Origin: Magnetococcales bacterium
GTDB lineage: Bacteria; Pseudomonadota; Magnetococcia; Magnetococcales; UBA8363
Direction of reading: 5' to 3'
DNA: 42,336 bases
Assembly (NCBI GenBank): GCA_015660855.1
Contig: JACSDG010000020.1
Location: 1-42,336 of the forward strand
The notes under the pieces are model-generated. The model saw only the letters and a program-made list of their open reading frames with translations, was not told the origin of the DNA and did not search any database. How positions within the stretch are numbered: the stretch's first letter is position 1; each line of letters opens with the position of its first letter. Position numbers and translations under genes: made by a program. This document shows, in pieces, positions 13,967-40,139 of the stretch.

Positions 13967-13980
13967 CCATGAATGGTTAC
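13963..13980. terminator. shared palindrome holding both convergent stop codons
   Basis: GTAACCAT (13963-13970) and ATGGTTAC (13973-13980) form a perfect 8-bp stem around GA. The MFS stop (TAA, 13964-13966) and the opposite-strand kinase stop (13977-13979) lie in mirrored positions in the two arms. A bidirectional transcription end is plausible, but no T-run follows on either side. Confidence 0.45.
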
Positions 13981-15161
13981 GAGCCAACAGCCTCTTTTTG
14001 AAAAACCGCCGTAAAGTGAAAAGTGCTCCCCTTGTTTTCTGCACTTTCCACCCAGAGCGTCCCCCCCATCAACGGTACAAAACGCTTGCAAATGGTCAGC
14101 CCCAGCCCTAATCCTCCATGAGAACGACGAAAAGCCAGTTCCAACTGAGTGAACTCTTGAAAAATAATTTCCTGCTTCTCCAAAGGTATGCCAATCCCGG
14201 TATCCCGGACCATAAAGTGAATCCGTTCCTCAATTTCCGTTTGCGACTGCCGCTCCACCGCCAATGAAATGCTGCCATGATTGGTAAAACCAACAGCATT
14301 CTTCAACAAATGCCGCAACACCTGCTGCAAACGTTTGGCATCCCCGGTCAACATCTCCGGCAACCCTTCCGGCAATTCCAGAGTCATCGTCAAGCCTTTT
14401 TTCTCTGCCTGCGGGCTGAATTCCTTGACTACCCCCTGTAAGAGCTTCACAAGATCAAAAGGTTCTGGCTGTAGCTGCACTTCCCTGGCTTCAACTTTGG
14501 CCAGTTCGATCATCTCATTGATCAGGCCCAATAACGATGACGACGCACCATTGATGATCTCCAGATATTGCTCTCTCTCTGTTTGCGGCAAATCAGGCTC
14601 CCCAAGAAAAGAGGAAAAACCAATGATGCTGTTCAAAGGATTGCGTAATTCATCGCTGATAATCGCCAAAAATTCATTTTTTGCCCGAACCCCATCCTCG
14701 GCTGCTGTTTTTCTCGATTCGGCTATGTTTCTGGCCTCAACCAGCTCCTGCGTCCTTTCCTTGACTAATTCTTCCAACCGGTCTCGATGACGTTTCAGTT
14801 CCAGATGCACCCCAATGCGATGCCTGACAATGCTGGCATTGAACGGTTTGGTTATGTAGTCCACCGCCCCCAATTGCAATCCTCTGGTTTCGTCGGCAAC
14901 CTCACGTTTGGCGGTGACGAAAATGATGGGAATGTCACGGGTGGCAGGGTCATTTTTGAGGATCGTACACACCTCATAACCGTCCATTTCCGGCATCATG
15001 ATGTCCAGGAGTATCAAGTCCGGAGGTTTTTTGGAACGGGCAACCTTGAGTGCCTGCTCACCATTCAAGGCGATGGCCCGATCATAGTCCTGTAGAATAT
15101 CTCTCAGGACATCGATGTTGGAACGCTGATCATCAACGATAAGCAATCTGGGGCTGGGCAT
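13977..15161 (-). CDS. response regulator-histidine kinase fusion with Asp in place of the H-box His
   Basis: A 394-residue cytoplasmic protein. The N-terminal receiver (about 4-120) has the acidic pair in LLIVDDQRSN, acceptor Asp53 in LILLDIMMPEMDG, and the T/K in FVTAKRE and YITKPF. A coiled linker, a HisKA-like domain (about 155-225) and a HATPase_c domain (about 265-385) follow, with VLRHLLKNAVGF (N box), VRDTGIGIP (G1) and GGLGLGLTICKRF (G2). The H-box reads AIISDELRNPLN: the phosphoacceptor His is Asp170 (codon 14652-14654). It may act as a pseudokinase or partner of the hybrid kinase whose stop overlaps this gene. The ATG at 15161 with GGAG seven bases upstream is preferred over GTG 15167. 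Confidence 0.85.
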   Translation of the reverse strand: MPSPRLLIVDDQRSNIDVLRDILQDYDRAIALNGEQALKVARSKKPPDLILLDIMMPEMDGYEVCTILKNDPATRDIPIIFVTAKREVADETRGLQLGAVDYITKPFNASIVRHRIGVHLELKRHRDRLEELVKERTQELVEARNIAESRKTAAEDGVRAKNEFLAIISDELRNPLNSIIGFSSFLGEPDLPQTEREQYLEIINGASSSLLGLINEMIELAKVEAREVQLQPEPFDLVKLLQGVVKEFSPQAEKKGLTMTLELPEGLPEMLTGDAKRLQQVLRHLLKNAVGFTNHGSISLAVERQSQTEIEERIHFMVRDTGIGIPLEKQEIIFQEFTQLELAFRRSHGGLGLGLTICKRFVPLMGGTLWVESAENKGSTFHFTAVFQKEAVGS

Positions 15162-15163
15162 GG

Positions 15164-18100
15164 TCACGCTCCAACCATGGGCAACTCCAGTTGCCCGGCC
15201 AAAGCATTCAATATTTCCACGGCTTTATCAAAGTTATAATCTTCAATCTCCCCCTCCAGTTCCTTCAGGGATTTTTTGCACGGTGCCCCTGGAAGCAGAT
15301 CACGCAGCAAGACCAGACAATCCGAAACCTCAATGCTGTTGGCATCCAATAATTCTTTCATTTCGTGCAATGCCTTTACTATAGCTTCTTCGTTTTTTGC
15401 CGCAACGCAAGTCCCATCTACGGCCAGGGGCAATTCGGAATCTTCCTTATCCAATGAAAAATTTTCCAATGCTTTGAGGGCTTCCAGGACCGGTTCGAGT
15501 TCGGCAACAAATCGTTCAACCTGTTCGCTCCAATTGACGATGTTTGCATTGCCCAAATACGATTCCAACTCCTGGGCCACCTGACGCAACCCGTTGGCAC
15601 CGATATTGCCTGCCACTCCAACCGTACTATGGGCCAACCGCGCCGCTTCAAGGCGATTGCCGCTCTTGACCGTTGTTCGCATTTCCTCGGCCAAACGCAA
15701 TTGATCCTTCCTGAAGCGCAACAAAATGCGAAAATACAGTTTGGCATTGCCCCCAACCCGTTCCAGTCCTTCCTTGGTGTTGATCCCTGAAATGTCGGGC
15801 AGGTCCAGCTGGTCACGCTTGAAATTATTGGCCGACGGCAATACCTTGAGCGGACCGATGACCTTGGTGAGAACCCCATACATCCTTTCCGGGCGGATTG
15901 GTTTGGATATGTGGCCATTCATCCCGATTTCAATACATCTTTTCCGCTCACTCTCCAGGGCGTGCGCCGTCATGGCGATGATGGGCAGGTTTCTGAACCG
16001 ATCATCGTTGCGCAAAATGGTCGTGGCCTCAAAACCATCCATGTCCGGCATTTGCAGATCCATCAGCACGGCGTCGAACGCAAATCGTTCTATCTGATCC
16101 AATGCTTCACGACCGTTATTGGCAATTTCTACCATCAAACCCACCCGTTCCAAAAGTTCTCGCGCGATCTGTTGATTGATTACATTGTCATCGACCAGCA
16201 GGATGCGGGCACCACCAATAACCTCGGCAGTTTCACTATCCTGCGCCAAAACTTTAGTGATTCTACGTTCGTTGGGTGGCCTTTCCTTGCCAAAAGCAAT
16301 CGATATCGCATGGATGAGTCGATTGTTGGTGATGGGCTTGTCCAGGAAAACATCGATACCCGCTTCCTGACTCGTTTGTTTAAACTGCTCCTCGCCAAAA
16401 GAGGTAAGCAGGATTATTTTGGGAATTTTCGCCGGCGGTGTCGTTTCTCTGAGCTTTTTGATGATCCCGGAAGCCAGGACTGTACCATTCTGACCATCCA
16501 GATTCCAGTCGATCAACAACAACTCGATGGGATCCTTGCCGAAATTATATTTCAACAACTGCTTCACTGCCTCTTCCGGAGTGCGAACCGCCTGAGGTTT
16601 CAAGGCCAGACGCTCCAACATGGTGGGCAGTATTTCCAGAATCATGTTGTTGTCATCCAAAACCAACACCTTTTTGCCAAACAAATCCCCGGAGACCACC
16701 ATTTTTTTTCGCCGGTTTTTTGCTGCGTGCGTCGTCATCACCATGAAGGAAAATACACTTCCCTGACCCGGTGTGCTGGTGACCCAAATCCGCCCGTCCA
16801 TCCGTTCCACCAGGCGTTTGCATATGGTCAAGCCCAATCCGGTCCCCCCATACTTGCGCGTTGTGGAACCGTCGGCCTGGACGAATGGATTGAACAGTTT
16901 GGTCAGACGTTCCGGATCAATGCCTATCCCGGTGTCACGAACCATGAAATTCAATTGCACCTTTTTATCGTCCTGTTCTTCGACGACCGCCTGGACGACA
17001 ATGGTTCCTTCATGGGTGAATTTGATGGCGTTGCGAATGAGGTTGATCAACACCTGTTCGATTCGGCCGACATCTCCAAACAATACCGAATCATATTCCA
17101 CCGGGGGCAGCAGGATCAGTTCCAATCCCCGGTCGGCAATCTGTTTGCTGAATAAATCCGCCAGACGGTCGAACAGGTCGGAAACGTCGAACCGGACCGG
17201 ATCCAGGTCCATTTGTCCCGCCTCGATCTTCGAGAAATCGAGGATGTCGTTGATGATCCCCATCAAGGAATGCGAGGCCCCCTCAACCTTCTCCAGATAA
17301 TCTCGAATCTTGGGGCTGAGTTCGTTTTTCAGGGCCAGATCGGTAAACCCCATGACGGCGTTCATGGGGGTGCGGATTTCGTGGCTCATGTTGGCGATAA
17401 ATTCGCTCTTCGCCTTGTTGGCTGATTCGGCGGCGCGCAAGGTTTCTTCCAACGACCGCAACAATTGTTTGCGGTCGGTGATGTCCTGTAAAAATGCGGT
17501 AAACGATAGTTCATCCTTCTGGTGTACCGAGGTCAACGCCACCTGTAGATCAACCACCTCTCCATTGTTCCGCTTCCCGGGTATCTCGAAACGTTTGCGC
17601 AAAACGGTACTGTTGCCGTTGACAATGCCCTTTACATAATCGGCCATTCCCTGAACATGTTGGTCCCGAAGGTTGGTCGGGACGATAAAATCAGTCAATT
17701 GGCCGCCAAGAACTTCCTTTTTTGAGTAGCCAAACAATTTTTCTGCCGCAGGATTGAAATCAAGTACATTTCCATCGGCATTGGTGGTAATGATGGCATC
17801 CAGGGCATTTTCCAATACCGATTGGTGCCTCTTGACCATCTTTTCCAACTCATGATGCCGTTCAATGATTTCAATATTTTGCGTGACTCTGCATAGAAGT
17901 TCCTCTTTCTCGAATGGTTTTACCAAAAAATCATTGGCTCCTGCCTTGATGAACTGGACCGACAGGTCTCCATCCGAAACCGAGGAGACGCCGATGACTG
18001 CCAGTTCATCCCGGCTGTGAAAGGCACGCACTTTTTTCAACAGTTGGATACCATCCATTTGCGGCATCTGGTAGTCGGTGATCACCAGATGAACCTGCTC

Positions 18101-18774: not shown

Positions 18775-19974
18775 TCAGCGTCCCTGGTCCAAGGTGCCGA
18801 TCTTGATGGATTCGGGCCAGAGGGCGGGGTTGGTGCCAAACTGGGCGAGGAAGGCAAAGGCTAGGCGTTCCAGACCGACACCGATGCAACCCGAATGGGC
18901 TGGGGAGCCATCGGGCAGAGTAATTTGGCAGCTGCGCCCGAAGAAGTCCATGTGATAATTGCGGGATCCTATGCTCAAGGTGCCATTTTTAAAGGGTAAC
19001 AGGGCGCGATATTCATATTTCAGGTCATAGATTTGTTGAAAGCCCGCCTGGGTACCAAACTCGCGGATGAAAAAGGGATCGTTGGCGTTTTCCAGGCGAT
19101 AGGCCATACCCAAACCTTGCAGCCAGCGACTGGTCTTCTGTCCCGCCTGGATCAGGCAATCTTTTACCTGTTGGCTGGAGCCGACGAAAATTACCTCCCA
19201 CATGGTAAAGTTCCACAGGCGTTCCAGGGAGTGCATATTGATGGATTCATAGCGAAAACAATGGCCCTGGGCCGTGGCGATCATGGGGGATCGGGTCATG
19301 ACCTTGTTGGCCAGCATGAGATAGAAGTTATGGCAGACGGTGGGAGAAAGCAAATTTTGGATTTTGGCGAAGGATCCTTCGGGGATGGTCAATGTGCCCT
19401 GGTTGCAGACGGTTTCTTTGGCAAACCGCTCGATGATTTCCATGTCTTCTTGCAGGTGGGCAACAAAGCTCAAGGAATGGGGAAAATTTTTAAAATATTG
19501 AATTTTTTCCAGGAACCCTGATGGAATCATGGCGGGGAAACGGTAAAGGTGTCCCCCTTGGGCGAACCCCAGGCGGAACAATTGCCCTTCAAAGTAGCGG
19601 CACAGGGAGGCCACCAGGGGGCCAAGGGAAAACAATCCGTCTCCGGTCTGAGTGACATGACCTTCTCTGAGGAGTGCTTCGGTGGGATCCTCGTTGGAGA
19701 AAACGGGCTGATCCATCCAGTCTTCGAGTATTTTTACCGGGGGTTCCCGGGTGGTGGCCACCAACAGGGCCATGGCGCGTTGCACCTTGGCGTGGAGGGA
19801 CTGCCATTCTTCGGTGCTCAGGGTCCGTCGCAAGTGCAGATGGTAATCTCCTGTTTCATCCCTGGTCACCTGTTGGATCAAGGGATCCACATAGGCCAGT
19901 TTGGCGACCATTTCCTGGGCAAGAAAGGCGGGGATGGTGATTGCGGGATGAACGACGCCTGTCGAGTTGGACAT
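18775..19974 (-). CDS. amino acid--[acyl-carrier-protein] ligase-like atypical SerRS homologue
   Basis: A 399-residue class II aminoacyl-tRNA synthetase-like protein. Motif 2 appears as GHCFRYES with a Cys that fits the zinc site of this family, and motif 3 as GCIGVGLERLAFAFL. It lacks a tRNA-binding coiled arm. The family (type protein Bradyrhizobium Bll0957) activates glycine or alanine and loads it onto a carrier protein, not tRNA. About 100 N-terminal residues precede the catalytic core. The ATG at 19974 (MSNSTGVVHP) is chosen, with AAGGAG eight bases upstream. The usual partner genes for a small carrier protein and an acyltransferase are absent from its neighbourhood here. Confidence is good for the fold and moderate for the substrate. 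Confidence 0.72.
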   Translation of the reverse strand: MSNSTGVVHPAITIPAFLAQEMVAKLAYVDPLIQQVTRDETGDYHLHLRRTLSTEEWQSLHAKVQRAMALLVATTREPPVKILEDWMDQPVFSNEDPTEALLREGHVTQTGDGLFSLGPLVASLCRYFEGQLFRLGFAQGGHLYRFPAMIPSGFLEKIQYFKNFPHSLSFVAHLQEDMEIIERFAKETVCNQGTLTIPEGSFAKIQNLLSPTVCHNFYLMLANKVMTRSPMIATAQGHCFRYESINMHSLERLWNFTMWEVIFVGSSQQVKDCLIQAGQKTSRWLQGLGMAYRLENANDPFFIREFGTQAGFQQIYDLKYEYRALLPFKNGTLSIGSRNYHMDFFGRSCQITLPDGSPAHSGCIGVGLERLAFAFLAQFGTNPALWPESIKIGTLDQGR

Positions 19975-20240
19975 GGTGGCTGCTCCTTGGGGATGGGATG
20001 GTGTCATGCTTTGGTTTTAAGCCTTTTCCGGGTAAATTTCCACAGCAAAATCGGCTCCTGATGCTTCCAGACCTTTGCCGGGGGGGTGCCCTCCTCCGGA
20101 CCACCGCCTTAAAGAAGGGGGACTGAATGGTTCACGTCCGTGGGCGAGTCCTTCGTCTTACACCGGAAAAATATCCTTTGCGATTGTTTTAATCCAGGGT
20201 ATCTTAAATACGTTAATCATCATAATTTTTGGTTTGCGCC

Positions 20241-21677
20241 ATGGATTACAGCACACTCGATACCATGCGACGTTCCCATCCTGCATGGCGTATGCTTGCG
20301 GCCGATCATGGTCCTTTGGTGGCCAGTTTTTTATTTCAAACTTTTATCCGCTACAACAACAGGACGTTGTCACAGTCGGAACTTGTCTTAAAACTCGATG
20401 ATTTGCTGCATAATGCGGGCAGGAATCAGTTTCCCAAAGCGGCTGTGGCCTATCTTGACGATTGGGCCTCGGACGAGCGTGGGTGGCTAAGAAAATATTA
20501 TCCTGCACAGAGTGACCAACCCCACTACGATTTGACTCCGGCGACCGAGAAGGCCCTGGACTGGTTGTCGAGCTTGCAGAAAAGATCATTTATTGGCACA
20601 GAATCCCGACTTGTGACGGTGATTGAACTGTTGCGTCAAATGGTGCAAGGGACCGATACCGACCCGGGCAACCGTATTGCCGATCTGGAAAAAAGGAAGG
20701 CCCTGATTGAAGCTGAAATTCAACGGGTTCGGGCTGGCCATATCGACGTGATGGATGTCGTCCGTGTCAAGGATCGTTTTCAGCAAATGGCGACAACCGC
20801 ACGCGGGTTGTTGTCCGATTTCCGCGAGGTTGAACAAAATTTTCGCGATCTTGACCGCTCTGTACGGGAGCGTATCGCCACTTGGGACGGTGCAAAAGGG
20901 GTCCTGCTGGATGATGTGGTTGGTCGCCGGGATGCCATCGCCGATTCGGATCAAGGAAAGAGTTTTCGCGCCTTCTGGGATTTTTTAATGGATCCTGACC
21001 GGCAGGATGAACTGGATCAACTGCTGAAAACGGTGTTGCAGTTGGCGGGGGTCAAGGAATTGGAGCCTGATTTGCGTCTGGGTCGCATTCATTATGACTG
21101 GTTGGAGGCTGGCGAGGTGGCCCAGGTTACGGTGCGTCGTTTGTCCGAACAACTGCGCCGCTATCTCGATGATCGGGCCTGGCTGGAAAATCGACGCATT
21201 ACCCATTTGATTCGAGAAATCCGCCAGGGGGCCTTGGCGGTTCGCAAATCGCCGCCTGACGACCCGTTCATCGAACTGGATCGGCCTGCTCCAGAGATCA
21301 GGCTGGTCATGGAGCGGCCACTCTTTTCCCCGCCGTTGCGCCCGAAAATTTTGGTTGGTGATCTGGAGCAGGCGGATGAGGAGGTTGTGACGGATGCCTT
21401 GTTTGATCAGGTCGTCGTTGACAAGGGACGACTTGCGTTGGTGATTCGCAGGGCCTTGCAGACACGGCACCAGATTTCGTTGGGTGATTTGTTGACGGTA
21501 CAACCTTTGGAGCAGGGGTTGGCCGAACTGGTGGCCTATTTGGGCCTTGCCGCCGAAGATGGAAACGCCATCATCGACGACCAGATGAATGAATCGGTGT
21601 TGTGGCAAGATGGTAGTGGACGCACCCGCCGGGCCACCATGCCGAGGGTGATTTTTTGTCGTGAGCCTGCGCCATGA
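20241..21677 (+). CDS. jetA: Wadjet subunit JetA (DUF3375)
   Basis: A 478-residue DUF3375 protein, the MukF-like kleisin of type I Wadjet anti-plasmid systems. The N-terminal winged-helix part carries SHPAWRMLAADHGPLVASFL and FIRYNNRTLSQSELVLKLDDLL. The middle is a long helical region (about 150-240), followed by FWDFLMDPDRQDELDQLLKT and a C-terminal domain ending near TRRATMPRVIF. The ATG at 20241 (MDYSTLDTM) is chosen; a TTG four codons earlier is possible, and the ribosome site is weak either way. Its stop overlaps the jetB start (ATGA). JetABC form an SMC-like loop-extruding complex that recognises small circular DNA for cleavage by JetD. The 266-base gap upstream shows no strong promoter. 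Confidence 0.92.
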   Translation: MDYSTLDTMRRSHPAWRMLAADHGPLVASFLFQTFIRYNNRTLSQSELVLKLDDLLHNAGRNQFPKAAVAYLDDWASDERGWLRKYYPAQSDQPHYDLTPATEKALDWLSSLQKRSFIGTESRLVTVIELLRQMVQGTDTDPGNRIADLEKRKALIEAEIQRVRAGHIDVMDVVRVKDRFQQMATTARGLLSDFREVEQNFRDLDRSVRERIATWDGAKGVLLDDVVGRRDAIADSDQGKSFRAFWDFLMDPDRQDELDQLLKTVLQLAGVKELEPDLRLGRIHYDWLEAGEVAQVTVRRLSEQLRRYLDDRAWLENRRITHLIREIRQGALAVRKSPPDDPFIELDRPAPEIRLVMERPLFSPPLRPKILVGDLEQADEEVVTDALFDQVVVDKGRLALVIRRALQTRHQISLGDLLTVQPLEQGLAELVAYLGLAAEDGNAIIDDQMNESVLWQDGSGRTRRATMPRVIFCREPAP

Positions 21678-22282
21678 CCGAGGCAACACCCTATTTGTCG
21701 CGGATTCTCGTCGGCCTGATGAAGGGGGTGCTTTACAGAGAAAAGGATCCAAAGCTTTGGCAGTCCCTGCGTGAGCTTCAGGGGCGGGCCAGTGACCATG
21801 TTGGGGTTCTCGGTCTTGACTTGGTTGTGGATGAAGCGGAAGGGTATGCCTTTCTCAAGCAGAGGGTCGCCAATGCCGACGACGAAGCAGCAGATCTTCC
21901 CCGTTTGGTTACTCGGCGTCCGATGGGGTTTTCTGTCAGTCTTCTACTGGTGTTGCTGCGCGAAAAACTTTTGGAAGCCGATGCCAAGGGCGAAGATTTT
22001 CGTTTGATTCTGGGCCGTGACCAGATTATGGATGCCATCCAGCTTTTCCTCCCGGACAGCACCAACCAGGCCAAATTGATGGACAGGTTGGACGCCGATA
22101 TGGGCAAAATTGTGGATATGGGTTTTTTGCGACCATTGCCGGGGCAGGAAGGTCAGTTTGAGGTCCGGCGCATCCTGAAAGCCTTTGTTGATGCCCAATG
22201 GTTGGGTGATTTCAACCAGCGGCTGTCCCAGTATCGAACTTATTTGGCAGAAATGGTTGCGTCAGGCAAGGAGGGGGCATGA
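21674..22282 (+). CDS. jetB: Wadjet subunit JetB (DUF4194)
   Basis: A 202-residue DUF4194 protein, the MukE-like partner of the Wadjet complex. The core has YLSRILVGLMKGVLYREKD, SLRELQGRASDHVGVLGLDL and EAEGYAFLKQR, then TRRPMGFSVSLLLVLLREKL and a winged-helix-like LDADMGKIVDMGFLR segment. Length is typical for JetB. The start at 21674 overlaps the jetA stop and the stop at 22280-22282 overlaps the jetC start, both as ATGA, so the three genes are translationally coupled. JetB bridges the JetA kleisin and the JetC ATPase heads. Confidence 0.92.
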   Translation: MTEATPYLSRILVGLMKGVLYREKDPKLWQSLRELQGRASDHVGVLGLDLVVDEAEGYAFLKQRVANADDEAADLPRLVTRRPMGFSVSLLLVLLREKLLEADAKGEDFRLILGRDQIMDAIQLFLPDSTNQAKLMDRLDADMGKIVDMGFLRPLPGQEGQFEVRRILKAFVDAQWLGDFNQRLSQYRTYLAEMVASGKEGA

Positions 22283-25200
22283 ACGGGTTGGCGACGACGC
22301 TCACACTGGACCTGCCCGAACATGATGGACCGCCTTTGCGTAGCGGGTTTCGCCTGATGCGGCTGGAGGTGTTTAACTGGGGTACCTTCGACACCAAGGT
22401 GTGGGGATTGAATGTGGGAGGGGAAAACGCGTTGCTGACTGGCGACATCGGCTCGGGTAAATCGACCCTGGTGGATGCCGTGACCACCCTTCTGGTACCG
22501 CACCACCGCATCAACTACAACAAGGCGGCCGGTGCCGAGATCAGAGAACGCAATCTTAGGTCCTATGTGCTTGGCTATTATAAATCGGAAAAGGGTGATA
22601 CCGGAGCCTCCGCCAAGCCGGTAGCCTTGCGTAACTTCAACAACTACTCTGTCATTCTGGGCGTATTTCGCAATGAGGGCTTTGACAGCGAAGTCACGTT
22701 GGCGCAGGTTTTTTGGATTGTGGACACCATGGGGCAGCCGAACCGGTTTTTTGTGGTTTGCGATGGTCCGTTGTCCATTGCGACCGATTTTGGCAATTTC
22801 GGCACTGAGATTGCTGCCCTGAAAAAACGCTTGAAGGCTTGTTCGGGAATTGAAATTTACGAATCCTTTTCGCCTTACGGGGCGGCGTTTCGTCGTCGTT
22901 TCGGCCTTGAGAACGAACAGGCCCTCGATTTGTTCCATCAGACGGTTTCGATGAAATCGGTGGGAAATTTAACCGATTTTGTCCGCAACCATATGTTGGA
23001 ACCGTTCGATGTGGACCCTCGGATTCGGGCGTTGGTGGCCCATTATGATGATCTTACCCGCGCCCATGAAGCGGTGCTTAAGGCCAAAAAGCAGATTGCA
23101 CGGTTGACCCCTCTGGTGGCGGACTGCGACAGCCATGCCAGACAACTGGGTGAGGTGACCGTTTTGCGCGAATGCCGGGAGATGCTGCATCCGTGGTTTG
23201 CCGGTTACAAGGCCGGGTTGCTGGCGACCCGGTTGGAACACCTGGCCGACGAGATCCGAACATCTGAAGCGCGGGCGAGTGCCATTGCCGAGGAGCAGCG
23301 TGGCTACCACCAGCAACAGCGTGATATTGAACGGGCCATCGCTGCCAATGGTGGGGACCGCCTCAAGGATTTGCGCCAGGCGATCATCAAGGCGGAGCAG
23401 GAGCGGGATGACCGCAAGCGGCGCGCTTTTGATCATGATGCGGTGGTTGCTGAACTCGGGTTTTCGGCGGTGCGGGAGGCGGACGCCTTTCTTGCCAATC
23501 GCAAACGTTTGGTGGCGGAACGCGATGGGGTGGAGGCCAGGCGTGATGCGGAAGAGAATAAACGGGTGGAGGCCAGCGTCCGGCTTCAATCCCTGAGAGG
23601 TGAACATAAGACTCTGACGGAAGAAATTGAGTCGCTTCGGAGTCGGCCATCCAATATCCCCAAACGAATGCTTGATTTGCGTGAGTCGTTGTGCCACGCC
23701 ATGGGCATTGCCGGAGGGCATCTCCCTTTTGCTGGCGAACTGATTCGGGTCAGGCCGCAAGAGGGGGTGTGGGAAGGTGCCATTGAGCGTCTGTTGCATG
23801 TCTTTGCCCTTTCCATGCTGGTACCGGATGCCCATTATGCACGGGTTGCCGATTGGGTTGACAGCCACCATCTGAGCGGTCGGCTGGTCTATTACCGGGT
23901 TCGCAAACAGGGGTATTCGCTGACATCGACCCTTGAAGCGACCTCCTTGGTGCGCAAGCTGGAGATCAAGACCGACTCTGAATTTTATCCCTGGCTGGAG
24001 AACGAGGTCGATAAACGTTTCGACTATGTTTGTTGCGATTCGATGGAACAGTTTCGCCGTGAATCCAGCAAGGCCATTACCCGGTCCGGCCAGATCAAGG
24101 GGGGCAACGAGCGTCACGAAAAGGATGACCGTCGGCGCATCGATGATCGCACGCATTATGTCCTGGGGTGGTCGAACATGGCCAAGCTTTCTGTTTTGGA
24201 GAGCCAGGCTGAAGATTTGGCCAGGCGGATACAGGTGGAGGGTGATCTCATTGGCAAGGCTCAGGTTGCGGCGAAGGGTTTTGGCGAACGGCTCCAGCGT
24301 CTCAGCAAGTTGGAGACCTGGACCGATTTTCGCGACATCGATTGGCGAGCATCTGCGGTGGAAATTGAGGGGTTGGAGCGGGAAAAAAAGGAAATCGAGA
24401 CAACCTCGGACATTTTGCAAACTCTGAATGTGCAACTCACGGGTGTGATGCAGGAGCTGGATCGCCTGGCCAAGGAATTCACGTTGGTCAGCAATAAGGG
24501 GGCTGTTGCGGCGGACAAGCATAAAAAATTCTCGGAGGATCACAGGCTTGCTTGTGTGCAGCGTGATGCGGGGAGTGCATCCCTGCGTGATCAATGCTTT
24601 CCGCTCCTGGATCAGATGCGCCCGGAAGTGCTGGGGGAGAGAAAACTCACCGTGGAATCCTGTACCCAGGCCGAGCACGAGATGGGGGAGTGGCTGCTGA
24701 AAAAGATCGACAATCTGGATCGTCTCATTATGGTTCTACGGGACAGGATCATCAAGGCCATGGCCGACCATATGGCGGCCTATCCTCTGGAGACCCGCGA
24801 AGTCGATGCGACCCTGGCGTCGTGCTCGGAATATCGCCGTATGCTGACGGCGTTGGAAACCGACGGATTGCCGCGTTTTGAGGCCGATTTTAAAAAACAA
24901 CTCAATGAAAATGCCATTCGCGAGATTGCCAATTTTCAATCCCAGCTTAAAAAGGAGAGAAGTAATATTGAAGGGCGGGTTGAACGGATCAATCTGTCTC
25001 TCGCCAGTATTGACTACAATCCAGGCCGTTTTATACGGTTGGAGGCGGAGCCGAGCCAGGATGTGGATATTCGAGGTTTTCAACTGGATCTGCGGGCTTG
25101 TACCGAGGGTGCCTTGACCGGGTCGGAGGATGAAGGTTATTCCGAAGCCAAGTTTTTGCAGGTCAAACAGATTGTCGAACGGTTTCGTGGTCGTGAGGGA

Positions 25201-25674
25201 ACCAGTGAATTGGACAGACGCTGGACGCGGAAGGTGACCGACGTGCGTAACTGGTTTGTATTCAGTGCTTCGGAACGCCGGCGGGAAGACCAGGTGGAAT
25301 ACGAACATTATACCGATTCCGGGGGCAAGTCGGGTGGCCAGAAAGAGAAGCTGGCCTATACCGTCCTGGCCGCCAGTCTTGCCTACCAGTTTGGTCTGGA
25401 TGGGGGGAGCGGTCCCTCGCGCTCATTTCGTTTTGTGGTGATCGATGAGGCCTTTGGACGGGGTTCGGATGAGTCTTCCCGTTTCGGCCTCAAACTGTTT
25501 CGCAGCCTGGGACTGCAATTGTTGGTCGTCACGCCGCTACAAAAAATTCATGTCATCGAGCCGTTTGTTGCCGCCGTGGGGTTTGTGCATAATCCCGATG
25601 GGGAGCGTTCCCTCCTGCGCAACCTGACCATCGAGGAGTTTCGCTCCGAACGCGATGCCAGGCGCGGTTTATGA
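22279..25674 (+). CDS. jetC: Wadjet subunit JetC (SMC/MukB-like ATPase)
   Basis: A 1131-residue SMC-like ATPase, the motor of the Wadjet complex. Walker A is GDIGSGKST (residues 55-63). Long coiled coils follow (about 260-460 and 640-1000) with a hinge-like middle region near 480-600 (RERP-type segment LPFAGELIRVRP). The ABC signature is KSGGQKEKLAYTVLAAS (about 1017-1033) and Walker B is FRFVVIDEAFGRGSDESS. All ATPase motifs look intact. The start overlaps jetB (ATGA). The stop codon (25672-25674) directly abuts the stop of the convergent phosphorylase-like gene with no spacer; in standard Wadjet operons jetD would begin here. Confidence 0.93.
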   Translation: MNGLATTLTLDLPEHDGPPLRSGFRLMRLEVFNWGTFDTKVWGLNVGGENALLTGDIGSGKSTLVDAVTTLLVPHHRINYNKAAGAEIRERNLRSYVLGYYKSEKGDTGASAKPVALRNFNNYSVILGVFRNEGFDSEVTLAQVFWIVDTMGQPNRFFVVCDGPLSIATDFGNFGTEIAALKKRLKACSGIEIYESFSPYGAAFRRRFGLENEQALDLFHQTVSMKSVGNLTDFVRNHMLEPFDVDPRIRALVAHYDDLTRAHEAVLKAKKQIARLTPLVADCDSHARQLGEVTVLRECREMLHPWFAGYKAGLLATRLEHLADEIRTSEARASAIAEEQRGYHQQQRDIERAIAANGGDRLKDLRQAIIKAEQERDDRKRRAFDHDAVVAELGFSAVREADAFLANRKRLVAERDGVEARRDAEENKRVEASVRLQSLRGEHKTLTEEIESLRSRPSNIPKRMLDLRESLCHAMGIAGGHLPFAGELIRVRPQEGVWEGAIERLLHVFALSMLVPDAHYARVADWVDSHHLSGRLVYYRVRKQGYSLTSTLEATSLVRKLEIKTDSEFYPWLENEVDKRFDYVCCDSMEQFRRESSKAITRSGQIKGGNERHEKDDRRRIDDRTHYVLGWSNMAKLSVLESQAEDLARRIQVEGDLIGKAQVAAKGFGERLQRLSKLETWTDFRDIDWRASAVEIEGLEREKKEIETTSDILQTLNVQLTGVMQELDRLAKEFTLVSNKGAVAADKHKKFSEDHRLACVQRDAGSASLRDQCFPLLDQMRPEVLGERKLTVESCTQAEHEMGEWLLKKIDNLDRLIMVLRDRIIKAMADHMAAYPLETREVDATLASCSEYRRMLTALETDGLPRFEADFKKQLNENAIREIANFQSQLKKERSNIEGRVERINLSLASIDYNPGRFIRLEAEPSQDVDIRGFQLDLRACTEGALTGSEDEGYSEAKFLQVKQIVERFRGREGTSELDRRWTRKVTDVRNWFVFSASERRREDQVEYEHYTDSGGKSGGQKEKLAYTVLAASLAYQFGLDGGSGPSRSFRFVVIDEAFGRGSDESSRFGLKLFRSLGLQLLVVTPLQKIHVIEPFVAAVGFVHNPDGERSLLRNLTIEEFRSERDARRGL

Positions 25675-38830: not shown

Positions 38831-38927
38831 TGCGGAGCAACCAGTCATTGCCCCGGAGGGGCATCATGTTTTTTCAGGGCACGGTTTTGGGTGTTGAATG
38901 GGTAACAACGCAACCTTCCAAGTCGTG

Positions 38928-40139
38928 ATGAATACCCGATGGACTGTCCCTGAGGACATCAACGACCAGTTGTTGCGCGTGTGGGACCAGGGACGCATCC
39001 TGGCCGCCCGGTTTGGCGAGGCCTCCCTGTTTCCCCTGCCGGTTCGTTTTCACCGCCCCAGCTCAAAGGATATGGCGGGGTCTTTCGGTGCCGTGCAGGA
39101 TTGGATCCGGCTCCTGGAGCAGGGAAGCCGCGTATCCCGTGGATTTGGCTATGACATCATTTGGGAAGAGATTAATCATCGTCAGATTGGCCGTAATGCC
39201 CTGCCGCGCGGCATTCAAGTCGCCACCGAAGCCGATGCCCTCCGTCTGATTGGCAAAACCCGGGAAGCGGAGCGGTTTTCCCATGTGACCCGAATCACGC
39301 ACGATACCTTTCCAGTTCTCGATGGTTGGTTGGCGGACCATCCCATGGTTGCGCTGAAACACGCCGATGCATGGGATCGGGTGTTGGCGATATTGTCCTG
39401 GTTTTGCCGCCATCCCCGCCCCCATTGTTATCTTCGCCAGGTGGACATCCCCGGGGTGGATACCAAATTTATCGAAGGGCGACGGGAACTGTTGTCGGAA
39501 TTGCTCAACCTAGTCTTGCCAGCGGATGCGATTGATACTGCGGCCACGGGCACCAAGGGTTTTGCGCAAAGGTTTGGTCTCAGATCCAAACCGTTCCGGG
39601 TTCGCTTTCGCCTCCTGGATCCCGTCCTTTCCATTGCCGGGTTGACCGATCTGACGGTGCCCTTTGAACAATTGGCCGCCAGGCCTTTATTGGTTCGCCG
39701 TGTGTTTATCACCGAGAACGAGATCAATGGCCTGGCCTTTCCTGCGGCACCCGAATCCATGGTGATTTTCGGCCTGGGCTACGCCCTCGACCAGTTACGT
39801 GAAATATCCTGGCTTGGCGAAAAGGAGATCCATTATTGGGGGGATATCGATACCCATGGGTTTGCCATTCTTGACCGCCTGCGCGCTATTTTTCCCGAGG
39901 CCAGATCCTTTCTGATGGACCTGGACACCCTGTTGGCCAACCGTGATCTTTGGGGCAGGGAGGAAAAAAAATGTACCGCTGATCGGCTTGAGCGATTGAC
40001 GGATTTTGAACGCTCGGTATTCGACGCCCTCCGTGACGATCATTATGGCGAAGGGGTGCGTCTGGAACAGGAACGTATTTCGTTTTCCCGTGTTGCACAG
40101 TTTGTGGATGCCCTTGGCCAAAACATTGGCCGGGATTGA
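38928..40139 (+). CDS. jetD: Wadjet nuclease subunit JetD (DUF3322/DUF2220, Toprim-like)
   Basis: A 403-residue JetD homologue, the nuclease that cleaves plasmid DNA held by JetABC. The N-terminal DUF3322 part has WTVPEDINDQLLRVWDQGRIL and WEEINHRQIGRNALPRGI. The C-terminal DUF2220/Toprim part has RRVFITENEINGLAFP (catalytic Glu) and IHYWGDIDTHGFAILDRLR (Asp-x-Asp), so the active site looks intact. ATG 38928 (MNTRWTVPED) matches the usual JetD start; ATG 38898 is an alternative. It stands 13 kb from jetC with the CHAT/TIR/FGE module in between. The closest upstream gene on the same strand is the FGE gene, 180 bases away, so it may now be transcribed with the TIR arm. Confidence 0.9.
   Translation: MNTRWTVPEDINDQLLRVWDQGRILAARFGEASLFPLPVRFHRPSSKDMAGSFGAVQDWIRLLEQGSRVSRGFGYDIIWEEINHRQIGRNALPRGIQVATEADALRLIGKTREAERFSHVTRITHDTFPVLDGWLADHPMVALKHADAWDRVLAILSWFCRHPRPHCYLRQVDIPGVDTKFIEGRRELLSELLNLVLPADAIDTAATGTKGFAQRFGLRSKPFRVRFRLLDPVLSIAGLTDLTVPFEQLAARPLLVRRVFITENEINGLAFPAAPESMVIFGLGYALDQLREISWLGEKEIHYWGDIDTHGFAILDRLRAIFPEARSFLMDLDTLLANRDLWGREEKKCTADRLERLTDFERSVFDALRDDHYGEGVRLEQERISFSRVAQFVDALGQNIGRD

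Follow-up and report, generated by a model that had tools for sequence, protein, structure and literature searches.

A gene on the minus strand of the window, which here denotes the whole stretch of 42,336 nucleotides that was analyzed (Magnetococcales bacterium, UBA8363; assembly GCA_015660855.1, contig JACSDG010000020.1, positions 1 to 42,336 of the forward strand), probably encodes a receiver-controlled histidine pseudokinase that is fixed in one genus, is translated beside an intact HPt-bearing hybrid kinase, and acts on the relay of that kinase. The open reading frame at 13977-15167, whose translation is FLAIISDELRNPLNSIIGF, has the H-box SDELRNPL, with Asp, encoded by GAT, at the phosphoacceptor position, exactly as the initial annotation had read it. 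The Pfam scan (Table 1) places a receiver at the N terminus and finds no PAS domain in the protein, and among the best 25 NCBIfam matches listed no family is above its cutoff. Translation could start equally well at GTG 15167, which gives a 4-nt overlap with the stop of the upstream hybrid kinase gene, or at ATG 15161, which lies 2 nt past that stop; across the genus, the junction reads stop-NN-ATG in five of the eight genomes, an ATGA overlap in two, and a longer overlap in one.

Table 1. Features of the Asp-bearing gene, its product, and the neighboring hybrid kinase, in window positions
Feature	Positions	Strand	Basis
Hybrid kinase, REC-REC-PAS-HisKA-HATPase-REC-REC-HPt, 1156 aa	15164..18634	-	Upstream of Asp-bearing gene; Pfam
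Receiver-HisKA-HATPase protein with Asp at phosphoacceptor site	13977..15167	-	ORF and Pfam; 396 aa
N-terminal receiver (Response_reg), residues 9-116	14820..15143	-	Pfam
Signaling-helix linker, residues 117-157	14697..14819	-	Segment of predicted continuous helix 111-187 entering DHp
HisKA (DHp), residues 162-227	14487..14684	-	Pfam
HATPase_c (CA), residues 275-386	14010..14345	-	Pfam
Asp172 replacing phosphoacceptor His, codon GAT	14652..14654 (+ strand numbering)	-	GAT in 8/8 genus genomes
Asn176, H-box +4 (Thr/Asn phosphatase position)	14640..14642	-	Asn in 8/8 genus genomes; Thr in 43/43 Magnetococcales relatives
First N-box Asn position, residue 286 = His	14310..14312	-	His in 8/8 genus genomes
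N-box Lys position, residue 293	14289..14291	-	Gly/Asn/Ser in genus; Lys in 43/43 Magnetococcales relatives

The change from His to Asp is real, conserved, and fixed across one genus. Our genus set comprises the genome of the window and seven others (in this sample, the genus is the whole family), and the single top orthologue from each of the eight genomes, 75-85% identical to the window's copy at the protein level, has Asp172 with the codon GAT; a further sequence (L009; 80% identical), which we left out as a separate member of the eight-genome count because its contig is as long (34,500) as one already included (that of G005), likewise has Asp. A DNA pattern for the Asp-bearing H-box (a fixed preceding run, a Ser-like residue, Asp-Glu, Leu/Ile/Met/Phe, Arg/Ser, Thr/Asn/Lys, and Pro) matches 8 of 398 genomes, all from the window's own phylum, and these are exactly the eight genus members, with none among the 390 others, the pattern being strict enough for other Asp-bearing H-boxes to escape it. 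A narrower version finds the same eight genomes among 48 of the class, and the pattern with His in place of Asp is present at 2474 sites in 48/48 genomes of the order.

The gene is also under purifying selection. The reading frame is open in all eight genomes, and synonymous sites are saturated, with a proportion of differences averaging 0.70 between pairs of orthologues; dN/dS for the whole protein is 0.075. By domain, dN/dS is about 0.05 for the receiver, 0.06 for the DHp domain, and 0.09 for the CA domain, and mean identity is 77% for CA versus 88% for DHp. The receiver is constrained similarly to that of the partner kinase, and the DHp domain somewhat less so (dN/dS of 0.06 versus 0.015 in the partner). 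Receiver residues D12, D13, D55, T85, and K107 are invariant in 8/8 genomes, in agreement with the initial annotation of the receiver as intact.

Comparison with relatives shows that the phosphoacceptor is not the only catalytic position affected. We aligned 70 receiver-kinases: the 8 genus proteins, 43 other Magnetococcales rows (including L096 and L097, two paralogues that come from genomes within the genus), and 19 others, all rows outside the genus being local BLAST matches of about 30-55% identity. His172 is present in 43/43 Magnetococcales rows and 61/62 of all rows beyond the genus set, and Thr176 and Lys293 are each present in 43/43 Magnetococcales rows. Among the 75 positions that are invariant in eight stand-alone receiver-kinase relatives, four are lost in all eight genus genomes (H172D, T176N, I219M, and K293G/N/S), and these include three catalytic positions, namely the phosphoacceptor, the +4 phosphatase position, and the N-box Lys. 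As a control, the neighboring hybrid kinase compared with 22 outgroups has lost 4 of 189 invariant positions (residues 70, 72, 799, and 970), none of which is among its checked catalytic residues.

The initial annotation described the N, G1, and G2 boxes as intact, and this holds for the G1 and G2 glycines, which are retained together with the second N-box Asn in 8/8 genomes, but not for the N-box itself, which reads RHLLKNA-V/I-G/N/S-FT, with the first Asn replaced by His and the Lys gone. The first of these changes is no sign of a dead kinase on its own, because His also occupies that position in seven of the eight stand-alone relatives with a good H-box, and Gln in the eighth. The N-box Lys acts at the nucleotide phosphates, and given its loss, normal nucleotide chemistry appears less likely than the initial annotation had assumed. 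The absence of the phosphoacceptor His and that of the N-box Lys each support loss of the kinase reaction, which is therefore probable. Asp172 and Asn176 are fixed in the genus while position 293 drifts, which suggests that the DHp face matters and ATP chemistry does not.

In 138 locus rows spanning residue 172, some of them duplicates of one gene, the His-less rows are those of the genus (15 rows from seven genomes, L009 included) and two from Bacteroidota. Both Bacteroidota receiver-kinases keep the receiver motifs: one (L034, 5001-6065) has Lys for His and no Pfam HisKA hit, and the other (L049, 3387-4538) has Thr for His with weak HisKA and HATPase hits, its G boxes seemingly also lost. 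A live receiver on a dead transmitter may thus recur.

The stand-alone Magnetococcales receiver-kinases (L097, L130, L131, L136, L138, L139, L174, and L175), with open frames of 388-460 aa, have the same domain order and length as the genus protein but, unlike it, keep the phosphoacceptor His, the +4 Thr, and the N-box Lys in 8/8 cases. In other Magnetococcales (e.g., L167), fused hybrid kinases with frames of about 1690-1850 aa occupy the same place, with a receiver-HisKA-HATPase unit attached that, unlike the genus protein, retains the His; a scan of nearly the whole L167 frame finds six receivers, two HisKA domains, two HATPase domains, and an HPt, and the sixth receiver is absent from the genus. 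Trees built by a quick method from 41 of the 70 alignment rows, in which the 18 'fused' rows were chosen by us and one (L137) did not group with the rest, place the kinase halves of the genus and stand-alone proteins in one clade (SH-aLRT 99.6). An AU test (p 6e-54) rejects the idea that the kinase half simply descends from the second half of the fused kinase found at this location. In the receiver tree, the fused relatives are favored (support 91), although both groupings pass the AU test (p 0.22 and 0.25). A mosaic origin, with possible domain exchange between the receiver and kinase halves, is therefore suggested, with the receiver side not significant. We note that mean identity of the genus to 12 fused and 8 stand-alone rows is 65% and 52% for the receiver, 41% and 37% for DHp, and 47% to both for CA; plain identity thus favors the stand-alone relatives in no domain, and it is the trees that support the kinase grouping.

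The Asp-bearing gene directly follows the hybrid kinase gene in 8/8 genus genomes. The hybrid kinase retains its HisKA His418, N-box, HPt His1002, and all four receiver phosphorylation Asp residues in all eight, so that the initial annotation was right to call the neighbor intact, although the overlap that it described between the two genes depends on whether GTG or ATG is the start. In the fourth receiver, one acidic-pocket residue is Asp in two and Glu in six of the eight genomes. In the rest of the order, a receiver-HisKA-HATPase unit that has His comes after the hybrid kinase, for the most part within a single frame, and four of the eight stand-alone receiver-kinase genes (L172, L174, L175, and L176) likewise abut a large hybrid kinase or lie close to one. 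Given both arrangements, the pairing of a hybrid kinase with an adjacent receiver-kinase recurs across the order; the genus has kept this pair but appears to have disabled the second kinase.

Just upstream of the hybrid kinase gene and sharing its strand, a gene at 18775-20007 encodes a protein with a class II tRNA-synthetase core (a weak tRNA-synt_2b match), which we presume may be a relative of aminoacyl carrier-protein ligases. Farther along on the plus strand, the window contains consecutive JetA, JetB, and JetC genes of a type I Wadjet system (20229-25674), with JetD (38898-40139, plus strand) about 13 kb from JetA-JetC. CHAT-domain, MoxR-like AAA, and TIR genes and two FGE-sulfatase-domain genes lie between JetC and JetD; the split would reflect a nested second system or the insertion of a large segment into the operon.

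The structure model of the Asp-bearing protein (pLDDT 80, pTM 0.52; the ATP lid, residues 340-352, is below 50) contains one continuous helix (residues 111-187) running from the receiver into the DHp domain, with pLDDT of only 56-78 over residues 131-190. In a Foldseek search, the top six rows are chains of LvrB, aligned over about 400 columns at a whole-chain TM of only 0.36. Among solved structures, one of the nearest in fold is the DivL kinase core (4q20; Z 23.8, 224 residues, rmsd 3.0), which ties with HK853 rows.

LvrB and DivL are also among the closest known systems. LvrB, a Leptospira Rec-HK, is described in the available portions of its source (PMC13269768) as switched by the upstream LvrA through the LvrB receiver, phosphorylation of which forms a coiled coil in the signaling helix and frees the catalytic domains; CheA3/CheS3 is reported as another receiver-kinase chain (PMC3868531, in part). 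The genus protein resembles LvrB in having a receiver, DHp and CA domains, no C-terminal receiver, and a place downstream of another kinase, and it may share the long signaling helix. However, LvrB retains its phosphoacceptor, His161, and autophosphorylates once its receiver is phosphorylated, whereas the genus protein has Asp and has lost the N-box Lys; it thus appears to be built like a Rec-HK, receiver residues included, yet with Asp172 in every genome it would not be a working member. DivL, with Tyr for His, is reported in the accessible text of PMC4211667 to have neither kinase nor phosphatase activity, to bind DivK~P through its DHp domain, and to control the hybrid kinase CckA. The likeness to DivL lies in a HisKA-type transmitter whose phosphoacceptor His is replaced lineage-wide and that is tied to a hybrid kinase pathway. 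By the same account, DivL carries PAS domains at its N terminus, Tyr at the phosphoacceptor position (Ala in the M. magneticum protein), and otherwise conserved kinase boxes, and senses a separate receiver, DivK, whereas the genus protein has a built-in receiver, no PAS domain, Asp rather than Tyr, and an altered N-box; on these features, we would not class it as a DivL.

On sequence criteria, the genus protein does appear to belong to the broad class of histidine pseudokinases, with HisKA and HATPase recognized, the His absent, and the protein conserved by descent. The part of PMC12632262 available to us counts 722 HisKA domains without His among 76,471 (0.9%). A literature search, with subscription papers mostly outside its reach, found no receiver-kinase pseudokinase and none with Asp, and a search on Magnetococcales two-component systems found nothing on the Asp-bearing gene. 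Histidine pseudokinases are thus known; what is new here is a lineage-fixed variant with Asp and a built-in receiver.

A simple sequencing or assembly error at position 14654, offered by the initial annotation as an explanation of the Asp, is attractive in that GAT is one base away from CAT, but the codon is likewise GAT in the seven other genomes, and two further catalytic-site changes go along with Asp172. The comparison of orthologues that the initial annotation had put forward, returning Asp and not His in all eight, rules this error out, and the probability that we leave to it is negligible. Decay of the gene, in which kinase function was lost in an ancestor and the frame is still unbroken, would account for the drifting Lys293 position and for a CA domain less conserved than the DHp domain. 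Against it, all eight frames are open at saturated dS with dN/dS about 0.07, and selection holds the receiver, and to a lesser degree the DHp domain, about as tightly as in the partner kinase; we consider decay refuted in practice by the open frames and low dN/dS at saturated synonymous divergence, and very improbable. That the protein is an active kinase, with Asp172 or some other residue as its phosphorylation site, is less probable still: the retained G1/G2 glycines and second N-box Asn are compatible with it, but the N-box Lys present in every Magnetococcales relative is lost throughout the genus, and we know of no case of HisKA Asp autophosphorylation. Sequence comparison thus supports the initial proposal of a pseudokinase with a live receiver beside an intact hybrid kinase.

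We envisage that the protein cannot autophosphorylate, and that the HPt of the neighboring hybrid kinase, an assumption made from adjacency, phosphorylates its receiver. The phosphorylated receiver would act on the DHp domain through the long signaling helix, as in LvrB, and the kinase-dead DHp domain, still a receiver-docking surface, would bind or dephosphorylate receivers of the same relay. A protein that retains the switch but not the kinase would be left with this DHp surface as its output, and by a narrow margin we favor phosphatase activity over pure DivL-like binding or allostery. A plausible parallel is CrdS H371A, which is reported to lose kinase activity and keep a strong phosphatase activity that depends on Thr or Asn at +4, the half-life of CrdA~P being 2.6 min with CrdS H371A versus 53.5 without CrdS (PMC3510030, in part); the genus protein has Asn176, one of these two residues, in 8/8 genomes. 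Nonetheless, phosphatase activity need not survive loss of the His, because DivL is described as lacking both activities and PleC H610A as losing both, and T176N is weak evidence for a phosphatase, because Thr and Asn are both common at this position according to the same source (PMC3510030). The available portion of PMC12632262 also considers phosphatase activity unlikely as a general role of His-less HisKA domains.

In the competing allosteric reading, which we hold to be possible though doubtful, the protein is a DivL-like partner or decoy whose dead DHp domain performs no chemistry and shifts the kinase/phosphatase balance only through binding to the hybrid kinase or to a receiver. DivL itself, active in neither direction and yet controlling CckA upon binding DivK~P, is the reported precedent (PMC4211667, in part), and its kinase core is among the closest solved folds; however, that match is no better than the one to the active HK853, the receiver here is in the same chain, and the +4 residue stayed within the phosphatase-competent Thr/Asn pair. 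Within the favored phosphatase reading, the change from HxxxT to DxxxN might have created an acid-amide pair spaced like the DxxxQ motif described for CheZ and NarX (PMC3510030, in part), which by this analogy would make the protein a dedicated phosphatase switched by its built-in receiver. We regard this as unlikely, but if it were true, a kinase would have been turned into a CheZ-like enzyme controlled by the relay that it drains.

Few histidine pseudokinases were found in print, and for the most thoroughly studied of them, DivL, the receiver that it senses is a separate one. Here, a live receiver is fused to a dead transmitter across a genus, beside a probable partner kinase and with living His-bearing relatives for comparison. 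These features make it possible to test, in a single small protein, whether a dead transmitter acts as a phosphatase or as a binding switch.
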